Part shown: in pieces, positions 336 to 5,620 of the stretch
Position numbering within the stretch: the stretch's first letter is position 1
How the letters are laid out: the number at the start of each line of letters is the position of its first letter
Assembly (NCBI GenBank): GCA_002835545.1
Contig: PIZK01000036.1
Location: 1-64,000 of the forward strand
DNA: 64,000 bases
Reading direction: 5' to 3'
Origin: Alteromonadales bacterium alter-6D02
Lineage (GTDB): Bacteria > Pseudomonadota > Gammaproteobacteria > Enterobacterales > Psychrobiaceae
Notes under the pieces: generated by a model
Databases searched by the model: none
The model's input: only the letters and a program-made list of their open reading frames with translations
Told to the model about the DNA's origin: nothing
Translations under genes and position numbers: made by a program

Positions 336-436
336 TTCTGTTTTTTATTCTCAGATTGTGTCTAGAGGAAAGCTAACGGGTTAAATTAAAGAGAGGCATA
401 GACGTACAAAGCCGCTTAGCAGCGGCTTTCGGTTCT

Positions 437-886
437 TTATGATTTATTTGAATTATTAACTTTATTTAAAAATGATTTTAGTTGTAAGTGAAATTGGGCA
501 TTCGATACGATTTCTCCGATTGCCAATGATAGTTCATCTTTGTTATCTGCGACAGAGTGATTTAATCCTCTAACAATAGTAACAGGGTAGACCTCATCCG
601 AGCGTTTAATTTTAAAAATCTCGGATGAAAAATCGATATTATCAGATGAGATATGAACCTCTTTAAAGCCTGTTTTTACTCGTGGTTGGTAAAAGCTTAT
701 CTTCCCCAGCGGCTGTGGTTCAGTTTTATATTCAATGAGTTCTAGAAACTTTATTTCAAGATTTAAAAAATTACTCAGAGAAAGTTGTAACTCCTTCAGG
801 ATATCATCTATTTCAGCTTCATTCTGAATAACGTTGTCAGCAGCTATTTTTCCTTTCTGCAATAACTTGTCAAAGTTTAAAGACAT
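437..886 (-). CDS. Hypothetical protein, partner of the EEP-fold enzyme
   Basis: A 149-residue soluble protein that I do not recognise. It has no signal peptide or membrane segment. The first 50 residues are helical and rich in Leu, Glu and Asp; the middle is predicted beta-rich; the C-terminal 35 residues are helical and end in an Asn/Ser/Lys tail. It begins 10 bases after the stop of the endonuclease/exonuclease/phosphatase-fold gene and must be co-transcribed with it. The start is supported by a GGAG-type site (GAGGAGTGAAAT before the ATG). The tight pairing next to mobile DNA suggests a partner, regulator or antidote of the upstream enzyme, but no function can be assigned. Confidence 0.75.
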   Translation of the reverse strand: MSLNFDKLLQKGKIAADNVIQNEAEIDDILKELQLSLSNFLNLEIKFLELIEYKTEPQPLGKISFYQPRVKTGFKEVHISSDNIDFSSEIFKIKRSDEVYPVTIVRGLNHSVADNKDELSLAIGEIVSNAQFHLQLKSFLNKVNNSNKS

Positions 887-896
887 ATTTCACTCC

Positions 897-1805
897 TCAT
901 GGTCTCGTAATTTCACACATAATAGGCAAGTGGTCAATTAAGTTACCCCTATTTTCAAAGTCATTGATAAAACCAACTTCCTCTATGACCTTGGTGCTTT
1001 GTTCGTTTAGATGCCAAGTCCCTTTCCCTAGAAAACTACCGGAAAACATTATTTGGTCATATGTGTGCCATATAGTACCTTGAAACTCTTTGTATTTGTG
1101 AGTACCTGATCTAAATGCCTCATTATCAGCTAAGTGATTATACTTTTTTTCTGACACAACACTTCTCCAGAATGGATTATAAAAATACTCATTCGGGTAT
1201 TTCCTAACTGCATCATGACAGCGAGATGCATTTAAATGATTCCGTATGCTTTCATCATAGGGATTATCATTAAAGTCGCCCATTACGATAACGTCTTCAT
1301 TTTGAGACATTAATGCTTGCGCAGATGAATAAACAATTGTTGCTGCTGATTTCCTCCGATCTTCTCCACCATGAAGGCGACTAGCCCAATGACATAAAAA
1401 TAAATGGATCCTTTTATTATCATCCAAATTAACAATTTCAACTAACTGTGCAGCCTTAACTGTATTACCAGTGATAGATTTTGACAGATAATGCAGATGG
1501 CTTAAATGAATTTTTCTAGTATTATAAATAACAGCAATATCAAACCTTGTTCTGCCAAGCTTACACGTTAAGTCTAGCATTTTTATATCGATTAAACGTG
1601 AGCCCAAGTATGTATTAATATATGCGACATCGTCAGACGAGACCTCGCAAATTGCAATTAAATCACAAGACAATTCTGTAATTAGCTTTTCGATGTGTTT
1701 ACATATTGTCGCATACGTTCCTTGGTTGGCTTTCGAGCTGGCTTTTGGGGCTGCTGGTGATAATGCTGTATTCCACCAAGCCATTCTTAGGTTATACAAC
1801 AACAT
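897..1805 (-). CDS. Endonuclease/exonuclease/phosphatase (EEP) family enzyme
   Basis: A 302-residue member of the EEP superfamily (fold of DNase I, ExoIII, inositol phosphatases), Mg2+-dependent phosphodiesterases or nucleases. The full catalytic set is visible: Asn12 in WWNT, Glu54 in ICEV, His139 in CHW, Asp177 and Asn179 in GDFND, Tyr-Asp at 249-250, and Asp291-His292 in DHLP near the C-terminus. The start was placed at the ATG at 1805, which has GGAG eleven bases upstream. The frame stays open 37 codons further, but that part looks like untranslated AT-rich DNA. A second possible start is the Met at residue 8. It is followed at 10 bases by the 149-residue unknown gene. Substrate unknown; an intact nuclease-like enzyme with a small partner beside an IS element is a plausible accessory or defence function, but this is inference. 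Confidence 0.8.
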   Translation of the reverse strand: MLLYNLRMAWWNTALSPAAPKASSKANQGTYATICKHIEKLITELSCDLIAICEVSSDDVAYINTYLGSRLIDIKMLDLTCKLGRTRFDIAVIYNTRKIHLSHLHYLSKSITGNTVKAAQLVEIVNLDDNKRIHLFLCHWASRLHGGEDRRKSAATIVYSSAQALMSQNEDVIVMGDFNDNPYDESIRNHLNASRCHDAVRKYPNEYFYNPFWRSVVSEKKYNHLADNEAFRSGTHKYKEFQGTIWHTYDQIMFSGSFLGKGTWHLNEQSTKVIEEVGFINDFENRGNLIDHLPIMCEITRP

Positions 1806-2001: not shown

Positions 2002-2205
2002 ATGAAGCGGTTAGTCGTAAGCTTAATGGTCATAGCTATCGCAGGGTGTAGCACAGCTAATAACATTGAAACAATTACTCCGAAAGAAGCGGTGGTCAAA
2101 TACAGTAAAATTGAAGGCTATCAGGATAGGTTTACTAACATCTATAAACAAAAGGACAGTCATAAATTTGTGCTCATAAGTTGTGAAATTAAAAACCTCT
2201 ACTAG
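2002..2205 (+). pseudogene. Truncated duplicate of the MBL-fold lipoprotein gene
   Basis: The first 49 codons repeat, with few changes, the N-terminus of the complete lipoprotein gene at 4535: MKRLVVSL, lipobox ending in Cys16, then ETITPKEAVVK and IEGYQDRF. Upstream DNA (TTTTGTTAAACTATTT and GGAATT before the ATG) is shared as well, so promoter region and 5' end were duplicated together. Similarity stops at about 2148, exactly where the motif AAAGGACAGTCA begins, and the frame then runs 18 unrelated codons to a stop. No metallo-beta-lactamase motif remains, so at most a short lipopeptide would be made. Confidence 0.8.
2151..2163. repeat. GTGACTGTCC motif, inverted copy at the left breakpoint
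   Basis: AAAGGACAGTCAT is the reverse complement of the GTGACTGTCC motif seen at 316 and 3531. It sits at the point where homology between the truncated and complete lipoprotein genes ends, and so probably marks the left edge of the inserted or rearranged segment carrying the transposase. Confidence 0.5.
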
Positions 2206-2235: not shown

Positions 2236-3222
2236 ATGACTCGCGCACGAAACCAGTTAATTGACTTAAATGCTACACCTTATTATCACGTGATTAATCG
2301 TTGTGTGCGGCGTAGTTTTTTATGTGGTAATGACCCATACAATAACAAAAATTATGACCATCGGCGGCAATGGCTTATCAAACGGATTAAGTTCTTATCA
2401 TCTGTTTTTTCAATCAATATTGCCGCCTATGCCATCATGAGCAATCACTATCACTTGGTGTTACAAGTCGATAAAGGTGCTGTTGATAGTTGGTCGATGA
2501 ATGAAGTGATTGACCGATGGTATCAATTGTTTAATGGTCATGTATTAATTGACAATTATTTAGTTCATGGCGCTTGTTCGCAGGGTGAAATGATACAAAT
2601 TAAAGCGCTAATCCAGTGCTGGCGAGAGCGTTTATATGACATTTCATGGTTTATGAAATGCTTAAACGAGCATATATCGCGCCGGGCGAATAAAGAAGAT
2701 CAATGTACAGGTAAGTTTTGGGAGGGACGATTCAAATCACAAGCCTTGCTTGATGAAACAGCACTTTTAAGCTGCATGGCCTATGTTGATTTAAACCCCA
2801 TCCGAGCAGGTGCTGCACAGAGCCTTGAACAAAGCGATTTCACCTCAATTCAAGAGCGTATAAAGCAGTTCAAGTCATATCAACAACATAAAAATAAACC
2901 GAAACCAGACTACCACCCCCATGTTCAGCCACTGACGCTATTGCCCTTTACTGCAACAGGCGATTCGAAAGCGTTGCCGTTTTCCTATGCTGACTATTTT
3001 GAGTTAGTTGATTGGAGTGGACGTCATATCGATCCTAAGAAGAATGGCTATATAAGCGATAATGAACCGAAAATATTAGACGCGTTGGTCATTGATAGTG
3101 ACGCTTGGTTACAAAGCGTAAAAGAGTTTAGGCGTCAGTATGGTAATTTCGCTGGTGGTGAATTTAGGCTTAGAGATTGTGCAGAAATGCATGGCCGTTG
3201 TTGGTATAAGGGTGTTGGTTAA
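2236..3222 (+). CDS. REP-associated type (Y1/IS200-like) transposase
   Basis: A 328-residue member of the Y1-transposase superfamily (HUH endonucleases), in the long single-gene branch often found in marine gammaproteobacteria and related to TnpA-REP proteins. The N-terminal part (YYHVINRCVRRSFLCG, residues 16-31) and the metal-binding HYH at 71-73 within MSNHYHL are clear. Later come GKFWEGRFKSQ and the conserved AYVDLNPIRAG near 183-195. The helix before GKFWEGRF, where related enzymes place the nucleophilic Tyr, reads FMKCLNEHISRRAN without Tyr, so cleavage chemistry may differ or be lost. Hairpins and GTGACTGTCC motifs flank the gene. It is probably a domesticated or repeat-mobilising enzyme rather than a classical IS. 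Confidence 0.85.
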   Translation: MTRARNQLIDLNATPYYHVINRCVRRSFLCGNDPYNNKNYDHRRQWLIKRIKFLSSVFSINIAAYAIMSNHYHLVLQVDKGAVDSWSMNEVIDRWYQLFNGHVLIDNYLVHGACSQGEMIQIKALIQCWRERLYDISWFMKCLNEHISRRANKEDQCTGKFWEGRFKSQALLDETALLSCMAYVDLNPIRAGAAQSLEQSDFTSIQERIKQFKSYQQHKNKPKPDYHPHVQPLTLLPFTATGDSKALPFSYADYFELVDWSGRHIDPKKNGYISDNEPKILDALVIDSDAWLQSVKEFRRQYGNFAGGEFRLRDCAEMHGRCWYKGVG

Positions 3223-3634: not shown

Positions 3635-3663
3635 TTGAATTGTGATGCGCACCGCGCTACACT
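3635..3663 (+). promoter_or_regulatory. Probable sigma70 promoter of higBA
   Basis: TTGAAT (3635-3640), a 17-base spacer and TACACT (3658-3663) form a good sigma70 promoter. Transcription would begin near 3670, which is downstream of the only upstream in-frame start codons of the toxin frame (GTG 3642, ATG 3645). Either the toxin is read from a longer transcript or its start has been lost. Confidence 0.5.
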
Positions 3664-3947
3664 TTTGGGCGATCAAATCATTTAAACATAAGGGCCTGAA
3701 GAAATACTTTGAAACAGGAAGTACTTCTGGAATACAGCCTAAACATCAAAGAAAATTGAGAATGCAGCTGGCAGCAATTGATACCGCTCAAGCAATTGAA
3801 GATATAAATTTACCTGGCTTTAAGCTTCATCCACTCAAAGGTAATCGAGATGGAATTTGGTCTATCACCGTAAATGGAAATTGGCGCATCACTTTTGAAT
3901 TCATTAATGGCAATGCGTTTATCTTAAACTACGAGGACTATCACTAA
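3642..3947 (+). CDS. higB: HigB/RelE-type toxin, start codon doubtful
   Basis: A HigB-family mRNA interferase (RelE/ParE fold) that would cleave mRNA at the ribosome. From IKSFKHKGLKKYFETG onward the protein is full length for the family: LPGFKLHPLKG, then GIWSITVNGNWRITFEF and the C-terminal LNYEDYH. From memory, family members begin MIKSFKHKG; here the Met position is a GCG codon (Ala10). The only in-frame start codons are the GTG and ATG at 3642 and 3645, giving an odd nine-residue extension and lying inside the probable promoter. The toxin may therefore be weakly made or silent. Its stop overlaps the antitoxin start by one base (TAATG), the usual toxin-first HigBA order. Confidence 0.75.
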   Translation: MMRTALHFWAIKSFKHKGLKKYFETGSTSGIQPKHQRKLRMQLAAIDTAQAIEDINLPGFKLHPLKGNRDGIWSITVNGNWRITFEFINGNAFILNYEDYH

Positions 3948-4240
3948 TGAGTATGCATAATCCACCACATCCGGGTGAGTTCATTTATGAACTTTATCTG
4001 GAACCATCTGGCCTAAGTTGTCGTTTCTTGGCGAAACAACTTGATGTAGCATCATCAACGTTAAATCGTATATTGAAAGGGCAAAGTGGAATTTCACCAG
4101 AAATGGCACTTCGTTTATCTAAAGCACTAGGACGTTCACCAGAGAGTTGGCTTTCGTTGCAAGATAATTATGATCTTTGGCATGCAAAGCAGAATGTTAA
4201 TCTAACTCGAGTACACGCCGTCAACTTTGCAATAGCGTAA
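3947..4240 (+). CDS. higA: HigA-type antitoxin, XRE family
   Basis: A 97-residue HigA antitoxin that neutralises HigB and represses its own operon. It opens with NPPHPGEFIYELYLEPSGLS, the family signature, followed by a helix-turn-helix at about residues 25-65 (FLAKQLDVASSTLNRILKGQ, then EMALRLSKALG). The ending SWLSLQDNYDLWHAKQ is also conserved. It is translationally coupled to the toxin gene through a one-base overlap. The reading frame is intact, so the operon still encodes a working-looking repressor. Confidence 0.92.
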   Translation: MSMHNPPHPGEFIYELYLEPSGLSCRFLAKQLDVASSTLNRILKGQSGISPEMALRLSKALGRSPESWLSLQDNYDLWHAKQNVNLTRVHAVNFAIA

Positions 4241-4534: not shown

Positions 4535-5620
4535 ATGAAGCGATTAGTCGTAAGTTTAGTGGCATTAGCTATCGCTGGGTGTAGTACGGCGAATAACATT
4601 GAAACAATTAGCCCTAAAGAGGCTGTCGTAAAGCATAGTGACATTGAAGGGTATCAAGATAGGTTCGCTAATATCTATGGCAAGTTTTCAGACTACCCGG
4701 CAACGTGTCAGAAAGATTGCTACCCACCAAGTGAGTTGATTCAATGTGAATCATCAATGCAAGGCTGTGAGTATGTCGGCTCAAAGCCTACAATTAATTT
4801 AGAGGCAGGCTTTACTATTCAATGGTTAGGGCATGCTAGCTTTGTCATTAATACCGCTGATGGGCAACAGTTTTTATTTGATCCGGTTTCAGCGCAATTT
4901 GATTGGCCAGTTAATTGGGCGTTTCGTTTAAGTGAGGGCTTTAATCGTAACCTGCCAACACAGCTCAGCGCGGGTGTGCTCAATAAAACAGCTGCGGTGA
5001 TGTATTCGCATATTCATTATGATCATTTTAATAAAGATGATATTGCAAAAATCGGCTCTAGTGCTCAATTTCTAACGCCATTAGGCTTTGCAAAGCAATT
5101 TCCTGAAGATGGTTATGATGTGACTGAAATGGCTTGGTATAGCAGCAAACAGTTAGGTCAAGTGACCGCTAATTTTGTGCCCGCACATCATTTTAGTAGC
5201 CGTATCTTGGTGCCATTTATTCATGAAGATCATAATGCCACGCTATGGGGAGGCTGGGTGCTAGAGTATCAAGGCAAAAAATTATTCTTTGCAGGTGATA
5301 CGGGGTATTCGCCACACTTCAAAGATATTCAAGAAAGATATGGTGATATTGATGTCTGTTTAATACCGATCGCATCGTATTTTAGCGAAGAGCACCCTAA
5401 ATGGTATCGTAAAGTACATACAACCCCAGAAGATGCACTACAGGCTGCAACTGATCTCAATTGTAAAGTGATGATCCCGTGGGGTTATGGTAATGCGAGT
5501 TGGCAGATGGGCGATCGTACTTCGCACTCAGCATTGTTTCGTTTATTACATATGAAAGATCAATTGAACTCTAATATACCTTTATATATTTTAAATGAAG
5601 GTGAGCAGGTGAAATTGTAA
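4535..5620 (+). CDS. MBL-fold metal-dependent hydrolase lipoprotein (RomA-like)
   Basis: A 361-residue metallo-beta-lactamase-fold hydrolase of the RomA/NAPE-PLD-like group, anchored as a lipoprotein. The signal peptide ends in the lipobox LAIAGC with Cys16. The metal motif HIHYDH is at 159-164, with further ligands likely at His218/219, Asp255 in FAGDTGY and His295 in KVHTTPEDA; GWVLEYQGKKLFFAGDTGY is typical of this group. Two Cys pairs at residues 58-78 may form disulfides in the periplasm. The substrate is unknown; related proteins act on phosphodiester bonds. A 5' fragment of the same gene lies at 2002. The next gene is convergent. Confidence 0.85.
   Translation: MKRLVVSLVALAIAGCSTANNIETISPKEAVVKHSDIEGYQDRFANIYGKFSDYPATCQKDCYPPSELIQCESSMQGCEYVGSKPTINLEAGFTIQWLGHASFVINTADGQQFLFDPVSAQFDWPVNWAFRLSEGFNRNLPTQLSAGVLNKTAAVMYSHIHYDHFNKDDIAKIGSSAQFLTPLGFAKQFPEDGYDVTEMAWYSSKQLGQVTANFVPAHHFSSRILVPFIHEDHNATLWGGWVLEYQGKKLFFAGDTGYSPHFKDIQERYGDIDVCLIPIASYFSEEHPKWYRKVHTTPEDALQAATDLNCKVMIPWGYGNASWQMGDRTSHSALFRLLHMKDQLNSNIPLYILNEGEQVKL

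Follow-up and report, generated by a model that had tools for sequence, protein, structure and literature searches.

The window, a stretch of 64,000 nucleotides from Alteromonadales bacterium alter-6D02, begins at a contig end. Close to that end its minus strand carries two tandem open reading frames (ORFs), a gene for an enzyme of the endonuclease/exonuclease/phosphatase (EEP) superfamily upstream and a gene for a partner protein 10 nt downstream. The first-pass annotation had described a two-gene unit at this position, and we found both minus-strand ORFs and the short gap between them. The features of the locus are:

408..429, no strand assigned: hairpin just beyond the partner stop, a possible operon terminator (weak)
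437..886, minus strand: partner, 149 aa (ORF; family alignment of 83 members; AlphaFold)
887..896, minus strand: intergenic gap of 10 nt (window sequence)
897..1805, minus strand: EEP-superfamily enzyme, 302 aa, first gene of the operon (ORF and translation, Pfam, AlphaFold)
2236-3222: Y1/REP-type transposase (Pfam)
3642-4240: HigB/HigA pair (Pfam)

The enzyme ORF runs from ATG 1805 to a stop at 897. We regard ATG 1805 as the likely start because DNA similarity to the nearest relative, locus L024 of Psychrosphaera haliotis, stops at 1806; a longer frame from a TTG to 1916 was unsupported and was set aside. The partner is preceded by an AGGAG-type ribosome site, and ~430 nt of sequence were available beyond it. 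The hairpin was scored on the plus strand, with one found against 0.9 expected by chance. At the contig end itself, ~20 codons at positions 1-60 resemble the start of a putative IS3 gene. Pfam supported the REP-type transposase and the toxin-antitoxin locus that had been noted nearby, and HigBA was the only defence gene set identified beside the window copy. We also observed that a 67-aa ORF (window 2002-2205) repeats the N-terminus of a downstream lipoprotein-like gene of metallo-beta-lactamase fold (4535-5620) and, as a truncated duplicate, is separated from this gene by the transposase.

The window enzyme matched Pfam Exo_endo_phos_3 (PF19580) at 3.4e-17. The catalytic set of EEP enzymes consists of Asn, Glu, His, GDxN and DH, and all the residues that the first-pass annotation had assigned to it (Asn12, Glu54, His139, Asp177, Asn179, Asp291 and His292) were present. 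Across 63 aligned full-length frames, six of these residues were retained in 63/63 rows and Asp291 in 61/63, the other two rows having Asn at this position. The AlphaFold model (pLDDT 95.7) had the EEP fold. The 50 rows listed by VIA-align had Z of 20.5-22.2 and rmsd of 3.0-3.8 over 227-257 residues, and included TDP2, nocturnin, PDE12, CNOT6L and DNase I, in practice tied. Nocturnin with NADPH ranked first among the Foldseek matches (E down to 2.6e-14), and nocturnin was also the top profile match (5.8e-8), with VIA scores that tie with those of TDP2, DNase I and others. We therefore did not read a substrate from the fold, since the structure search does not separate DNase, TDP2, nocturnin and PDE12. 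The model and the alignment indicate that the enzyme has a predicted EEP fold with an intact active site. It thus shares its fold and catalytic residues with the known members of the superfamily (nocturnin, TDP2, PDE12, CNOT6L and DNase I) and differs from them in its 10-18% identity to solved structures, its dedicated partner gene and its carriage on mobile DNA. PADLOC 2.0.0 returned no family for either window protein at E up to 1.

The partner had been assigned to no known family, which agrees with our searches: none above cut-off was found in Pfam, NCBIfam or PADLOC. Its AlphaFold model (pLDDT 95.9) consists of a 37-residue N-terminal helix, a five-stranded sheet and two C-terminal helices. 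The window protein and 82 partners from other loci (83 in all) form a single family in alignment and share a G-Y-P motif, which is V-Y-P in the window copy and in which P101 is at least 90% conserved. The phage protein clusters phrog_10179 and phrog_24185, both without an assigned function, were matched by 57/83 and 15/83 partners, respectively; the window's own partner was not among the 57. None of the 83 partners had an HTH or other convincing Pfam domain or matched an antitoxin family. Not every type II antitoxin carries a DNA-binding domain. A Pox_G7 match of the window partner (0.006, below cut-off, 1/83 members) was dismissed as noise, as were three weak matches of this partner in relatives (E 0.01-0.08). 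For a solved relative, nothing better than E 0.3 was obtained by sequence and none at E 0.001 by Foldseek; the best VIA match, a Mediator subunit, had a Z of 7.8, a level that the tool calls common, and was rejected. The partner varied more than the enzyme, with a mean column identity of 20% vs 34% in comparable alignments. On the Pseudomonas-type partners of L042, L117, L118, L122, L124 and L163 we noted long Lys/Ala/Pro-rich repeat tails, similar to histone H1 or AlgP, which bring the whole proteins to as much as 438 aa.

We analyzed the pairing of the two genes in 109 kept non-redundant loci, whose enzymes are under 90% identical. In 104/109 loci of this set, the start of an ORF of at least 90 aa lies at a distance of -17 to +11 nt from the stop of the enzyme; the set omits loci already known to be without a clean downstream partner (L061, L064, L069, L077, L079, L080, L081, L091, L094 and L098) and also excludes L012, L013, L017-L022, L082-L090, L092, L093, L095-L097, L099, L101 and L102. 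In the remaining five, the partner is frame-broken (L007 and L024), short ORFs of 88 and 83 aa lie within 400 nt of the contig end (L037 and L046, respectively), or the contig ends at the enzyme stop (L142). An unfiltered scan, which counts copies and overlapping loci, gave 136 adjacent partner matches and 42 enzyme ORFs without one. Thirty-three of these 42 are EEPs of a partner-free group. The other nine, listed separately (L012, L021, L024, L061, L069, L077, L142, L157 and L164), are accounted for by a gene that is broken or cut off or by a reversed gene order, and L157 by an ORF-boundary artefact. An intact enzyme stands beside a frame-broken partner at two loci, L024 and the plasmid pEC904 (L007), for which sequencing errors are a possible source; L012 and L164 show the opposite.

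Since many of the scanned loci were members of the partner profile, a half-split control was made. Profiles built from half of the alignment recovered 40/41, 39/41, 39/42, 42/42 and 40/42 of the held-out partners. Among 17,509 ORFs in 180 loci, the matches at E<1e-3 that did not lie just downstream of an enzyme were those in L061, L020 and L180. In L020, a circular plasmid, the start of the record splits the enzyme gene, and L180 is a phage record described below. In L061 (L061:7401-8957, Mitsuaria chitosanitabida), the order is reversed and the partner-profile match lies upstream of the enzyme. When searches started from the partner, 15/15 viral contigs and 27/27 plasmid records (42/42) also held the enzyme, a count that includes some queries' own records and near-identical copies and so represents fewer independent cases. 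In a quick tree of the enzymes, 2 changes sufficed to separate the 104 partner-linked from the 27 partner-free rows, as against 24.9 with shuffled labels, and 0/500 shuffles were as low as 2; labels were set by hand, with L007 and L024 (broken partner) and L061 as partner-linked and L069 and L142 as unclear. The window enzyme is row L002 of this tree, in which long branches make single placements unsure. EEP relatives outside the partner-linked group had no partner. The half-split control, the partner-side searches and the enzyme tree together indicate, at the level of sequence, that the pairing is more than chance, conserved and near-exclusive. The partner was thus nearly always present at homologous loci; its absence there would have spoken against the two-gene reading of the first-pass annotation.

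Among 98 genomes (its own, 8 of the genus and the rest of the order), the enzyme was found in its own genome only, with matches in 0/8 other genus genomes and 0/97 other relatives in all. This distribution rules out a single housekeeping gene present in all related genomes. The partner profile likewise found only its own genome among 274 genomes of the class; the enzyme profile, at 1e-10 or better, found 8/274, and the seven others are EEPs without a partner. A scan of genome contigs with the window partner alone gave nothing. For the enzyme, tblastn gave 39 plasmid records, some of them with distant Bacteroidota EEPs, and 5 phage records, and a 10-sequence enzyme alignment found a relative on 66 viral contigs. 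The same alignment confirmed 481 relatives in GTDB genomes, the best 80 of which were kept; the 50 genome loci in the kept set comprise 33 Gamma-, 8 Beta- and 1 Alphaproteobacteria, 3 Myxococcota, 2 Planctomycetota, 1 Spirochaetota, 1 Electryoneota and 1 unplaced. Among the matches listed, the closest enzymes were those of Psychrosphaera haliotis (82%), two Shewanella contigs (59-62%) and two viral contigs (62-63%). The conjugative Photobacterium plasmid pdp3 had an enzyme at 63% and a partner at 42%. On this plasmid (NZ_CP150465.1, L006:9804-15665) the genes after the pair, among them Hcp, VgrG and a lipase-family gene, form by annotation a plasmid-borne T6SS cargo cluster.

Carriers in the 109-locus set, mostly in Proteobacteria, include viral contigs, a filamentous phage (of Vibrio), 3-kb plasmids, a conjugative plasmid and an integron cassette. 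On the Klebsiella 3.5-kb ColRNAI plasmid that we examined, Rop, the enzyme and the partner are the only annotated features. About 20 Klebsiella records matched the enzyme, and E. coli genomes had no DNA match to the Klebsiella pair. The Klebsiella record CP031375.2 (8379 bp) has two enzyme places and three partner places and is perhaps a multimer of the 3.5-kb plasmid. Two 3.3-kb plasmids of Edwardsiella tarda carry the pair and little else, and further copies were found on Acinetobacter plasmids and on E. coli pEC904, the 3-kb plasmid of CDI strain EC93 (PMC8190604). Within the stretches compared, the window and L024 have only the pair in common. In L024 the pair lies between repeats that we take to be attC-like, in an array that contains seven copies, each 103 nt long and nearly identical (L024:5810-12220), where the partner frame is broken; the pair there looks like an integron cassette. 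The recurrence of the pair in unrelated hosts and mobile elements, which the first-pass annotation had proposed to examine, indicates from the sequence records that it moves between mobile elements, and the family is rare.

The surroundings of some copies point to defence. In 9/109 kept loci (L043, L106-L110, L115, L140 and L162), the pair has a gpA-type gene on its upstream side and, downstream on the other strand, portal and/or terminase genes, and 8 more loci have the portal/terminase side only (L035, L116, L130, L134, L143, L144, L158 and L161); these labels combine PHROG matches of some neighbours (portal and origin-nicking) with size and order, and L073 and L103, in which the portal is distant or on the other side, were left out. 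These counts concern other loci, the flank of the window copy being the contig end. The P2 gpA-portal slot is described as an anti-phage hotspot in two reports (PMC9122126, PMC9519451). Abi_2 lies directly upstream in two Acinetobacter plasmids (L015 and L016), and in L072, L139 and L155 a pP_pnuc gene precedes the pair at a distance of 20-68 nt. By annotation, pSWBY1 has Abi_2 upstream, a broken pair and type I R-M after it. We observed that a same-direction Abi_2 or pPIWI-associated nuclease stands directly upstream in L015, L016, L021, L072, L139 and L155, as if three-gene operons had formed repeatedly. In scans of 182 neighbours with PADLOC, Pfam and PHROG, which listed 25 families of the 57 to 151 per scan and gave counts without a control set, the PADLOC matches listed included PycC, 1TM-TIR, AbiD, Old, AriA and PD-Lambda-5_B as well as generic matches. 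The immediate neighbours in genome contigs gave mostly single Pfam matches to ordinary families. The gene order around the nine loci indicates that some copies sit in a known defence slot, and the defence-type neighbourhood suggested for the window pair is borne out for some copies by the P2 hotspot and by the Abi_2 and pP_pnuc neighbours.

The best viral-structure match of the partner was a 115-aa protein of the Acinetobacter phage IME-AB2 (Foldseek probability 1.00, TM 0.78 on the target, E 4.7e-3). We took this protein to be AB2_37 because AB2_37 is the only annotated 115-aa gene in the record:

L180:18290-18637, IME-AB2 record: orphan partner homologue AB2_37

AB2_37 is shorter than the window partner (115 vs 149 aa). 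It aligned with the partner profile in hhalign at 98.2% and E 3.2e-14 (a single comparison) with 14% identity, and its HMM match (E 1.8e-15) was the sole partner match in the IME-AB2 genome. Pairwise BLAST to single partners was weak (best 2.9e-5 over 39 aa), and the closest single partners by BLAST were not the Acinetobacter ones. The single partners of the window, L008 and L119 had no match in the phage collection. A partner-like fold in phage N1M2 (Foldseek probability 0.96) was rejected, as a profile search of the whole record found nothing. Homologues of AB2_37 were found in 58 phage records, all of Acinetobacter, and in six IMG/VR contigs. We searched seven orphan records whole, namely IME-AB2 and the six IMG/VR contigs, one of which equals IME-AB2 in length and is perhaps the same phage; the enzyme and a phage integrase were absent in 7/7, and both were found in 2 control records. 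IME-AB2 is placed in Obolenskvirus by its record, and from the missing integrase we infer that the orphan phages are virulent. They are probably one lineage with one acquisition, and so one observation. The pair itself is held by Acinetobacter baumannii CP040048 and NZ_CP077849, in which the match covers 98% of the length of the enzyme and 100% of the partner. A lone partner homologue in phages is the pattern of a phage-borne antitoxin, which suggests by analogy a candidate counter-defence gene. Among the roles offered in the first-pass annotation (inhibitor, sensor or targeting subunit), the phage orphan favours the inhibitor, and a partner acting as inhibitor is the favoured, unproven reading of these sequences.

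We consider it probable (roughly 0.58) that the pair is a toxin-antitoxin-like anti-phage module, undescribed and spreading horizontally, in which the partner restrains an EEP effector; the parts of this reading that we infer are the toxicity of the enzyme, its binding and inhibition by the partner, its trigger, its substrate and the protection against phages. The free enzyme would act as a metal-dependent phosphodiesterase or phosphatase and damage nucleic acid or the nucleotide pool, and the partner made from the same operon would bind it and keep it inactive. An infecting phage would upset the balance between enzyme and partner, so that the enzyme would be released and the infection aborted. 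IME-AB2 and its relatives would carry the lone partner copy to keep the enzyme off. The broken partners of L024 and L007, the lack of an antitoxin-family match and the weak similarity, short length and probable single acquisition of the orphan count against this module, as do the missing PADLOC matches of both proteins, the mostly ordinary families among the neighbours and the two rows with Asn in place of Asp291. The first-pass view of the pair as a candidate undescribed system is thus supported by the pairing, the mobility and the non-housekeeping distribution.

The alternative that survives best, itself unlikely, is a two-subunit nuclease in which the enzyme would need the partner for activation, sensing or targeting, and in which the phage orphan would act as a dominant-negative decoy or in something unrelated. 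Near-obligate pairing would fit any tight complex, the Lys/Ala/Pro-rich tails of the Pseudomonas-type partners hint at nucleic-acid binding, and the order in L061 shows that gene position is not fixed. However, the simplest reading of a lone homologue in phages is that of a neutraliser, and a partner sequence that varies more than that of the enzyme also speaks against a needed subunit. A more specific form of the anti-phage module is quite unlikely as a joint reading: a nocturnin-like EEP would destroy a soluble nucleotide (for example by removing the 2'-phosphate of NADP(H), or by cutting a signal nucleotide) and not DNA or RNA, leading to abortive infection, with restraint by a partner whose fold has no solved relative found, and phages would have been driven to take up this restraint as counter-defence.

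An addiction module (toxin-antitoxin) of plasmids or prophages with no direct anti-phage role could account for the tiny plasmids that hold little besides replication and the pair, and for copies as an integron cassette and beside phage integrases. We consider it improbable, since the P2 hotspot copies, the Abi_2 and pP_pnuc neighbours and the orphan in phages in which no integrase was found point to conflict with phages. EEP enzymes include repair nucleases, and the number of viral contigs with an enzyme relative would also suit accessory replication or repair genes of phages, or non-defence genes for lysogenic fitness; the presence of the pair on plasmids and in an integron, its strict partner association and its absence from sampled relatives make this very doubtful. 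Small ColE1-type plasmids often bear bacteriocins and the pdp3 pair adjoins Hcp, VgrG and lipase genes, yet a secreted effector with its immunity protein (bacteriocin or T6SS cargo) is scarcely credible, as the EEP core occupies the enzyme from start to end, with no space left for a translocation or a receptor domain, viral contigs are frequent among the carriers, and a lone immunity gene would be useless to a phage.

No paper recognisably on the pair was found in a limited search of the open-access literature, and no described system of the toxin-antitoxin or anti-phage kind is known to use an EEP effector. The proposed toxin-antitoxin-like module would resemble type II toxin-antitoxin systems in its two small adjacent genes, with a tight second ORF in the great majority of the kept loci. 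Cytolethal distending toxin, an EEP toxin of P2-like phages, has the lectin partners CdtA and CdtC, whereas the pair described here has no lectin match (no Pfam lectin family among the 83 partners at E up to 0.01). The cargo of the P2 gpA-gpQ hotspot, which includes old, tin, retrons and others, occupies the same slot as the pair does in nine loci, and an EEP-plus-partner pair is not named among this cargo in the available parts of PMC9122126 and PMC9519451. DarT is an ADP-ribosylase and DarG a de-ADP-ribosylase (PMC12409358), and AdfB of ICP1 counters DarTG (PMC11481870). DarTG with AdfB is alike in being a two-gene pair on mobile DNA for which a phage encodes a substitute for the second protein and lacks the first; here, in contrast, an EEP hydrolase would be the effector, and its partner is a small alpha/beta protein that matches no recognised enzyme family. 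The role of AdfB was shown by experiment, whereas that of the orphan is deduced from sequence and structure. Lone antitoxins have been proposed as anti-defence genes of plasmids (PMC11541004).

The pair would give a function to PHROG families that have none and would explain the cargo of some 3-kb plasmids of Klebsiella, Edwardsiella and E. coli. It is a small pair found in unrelated mobile elements, and the lone partner copy in phages provides a ready-made test of its mechanism.
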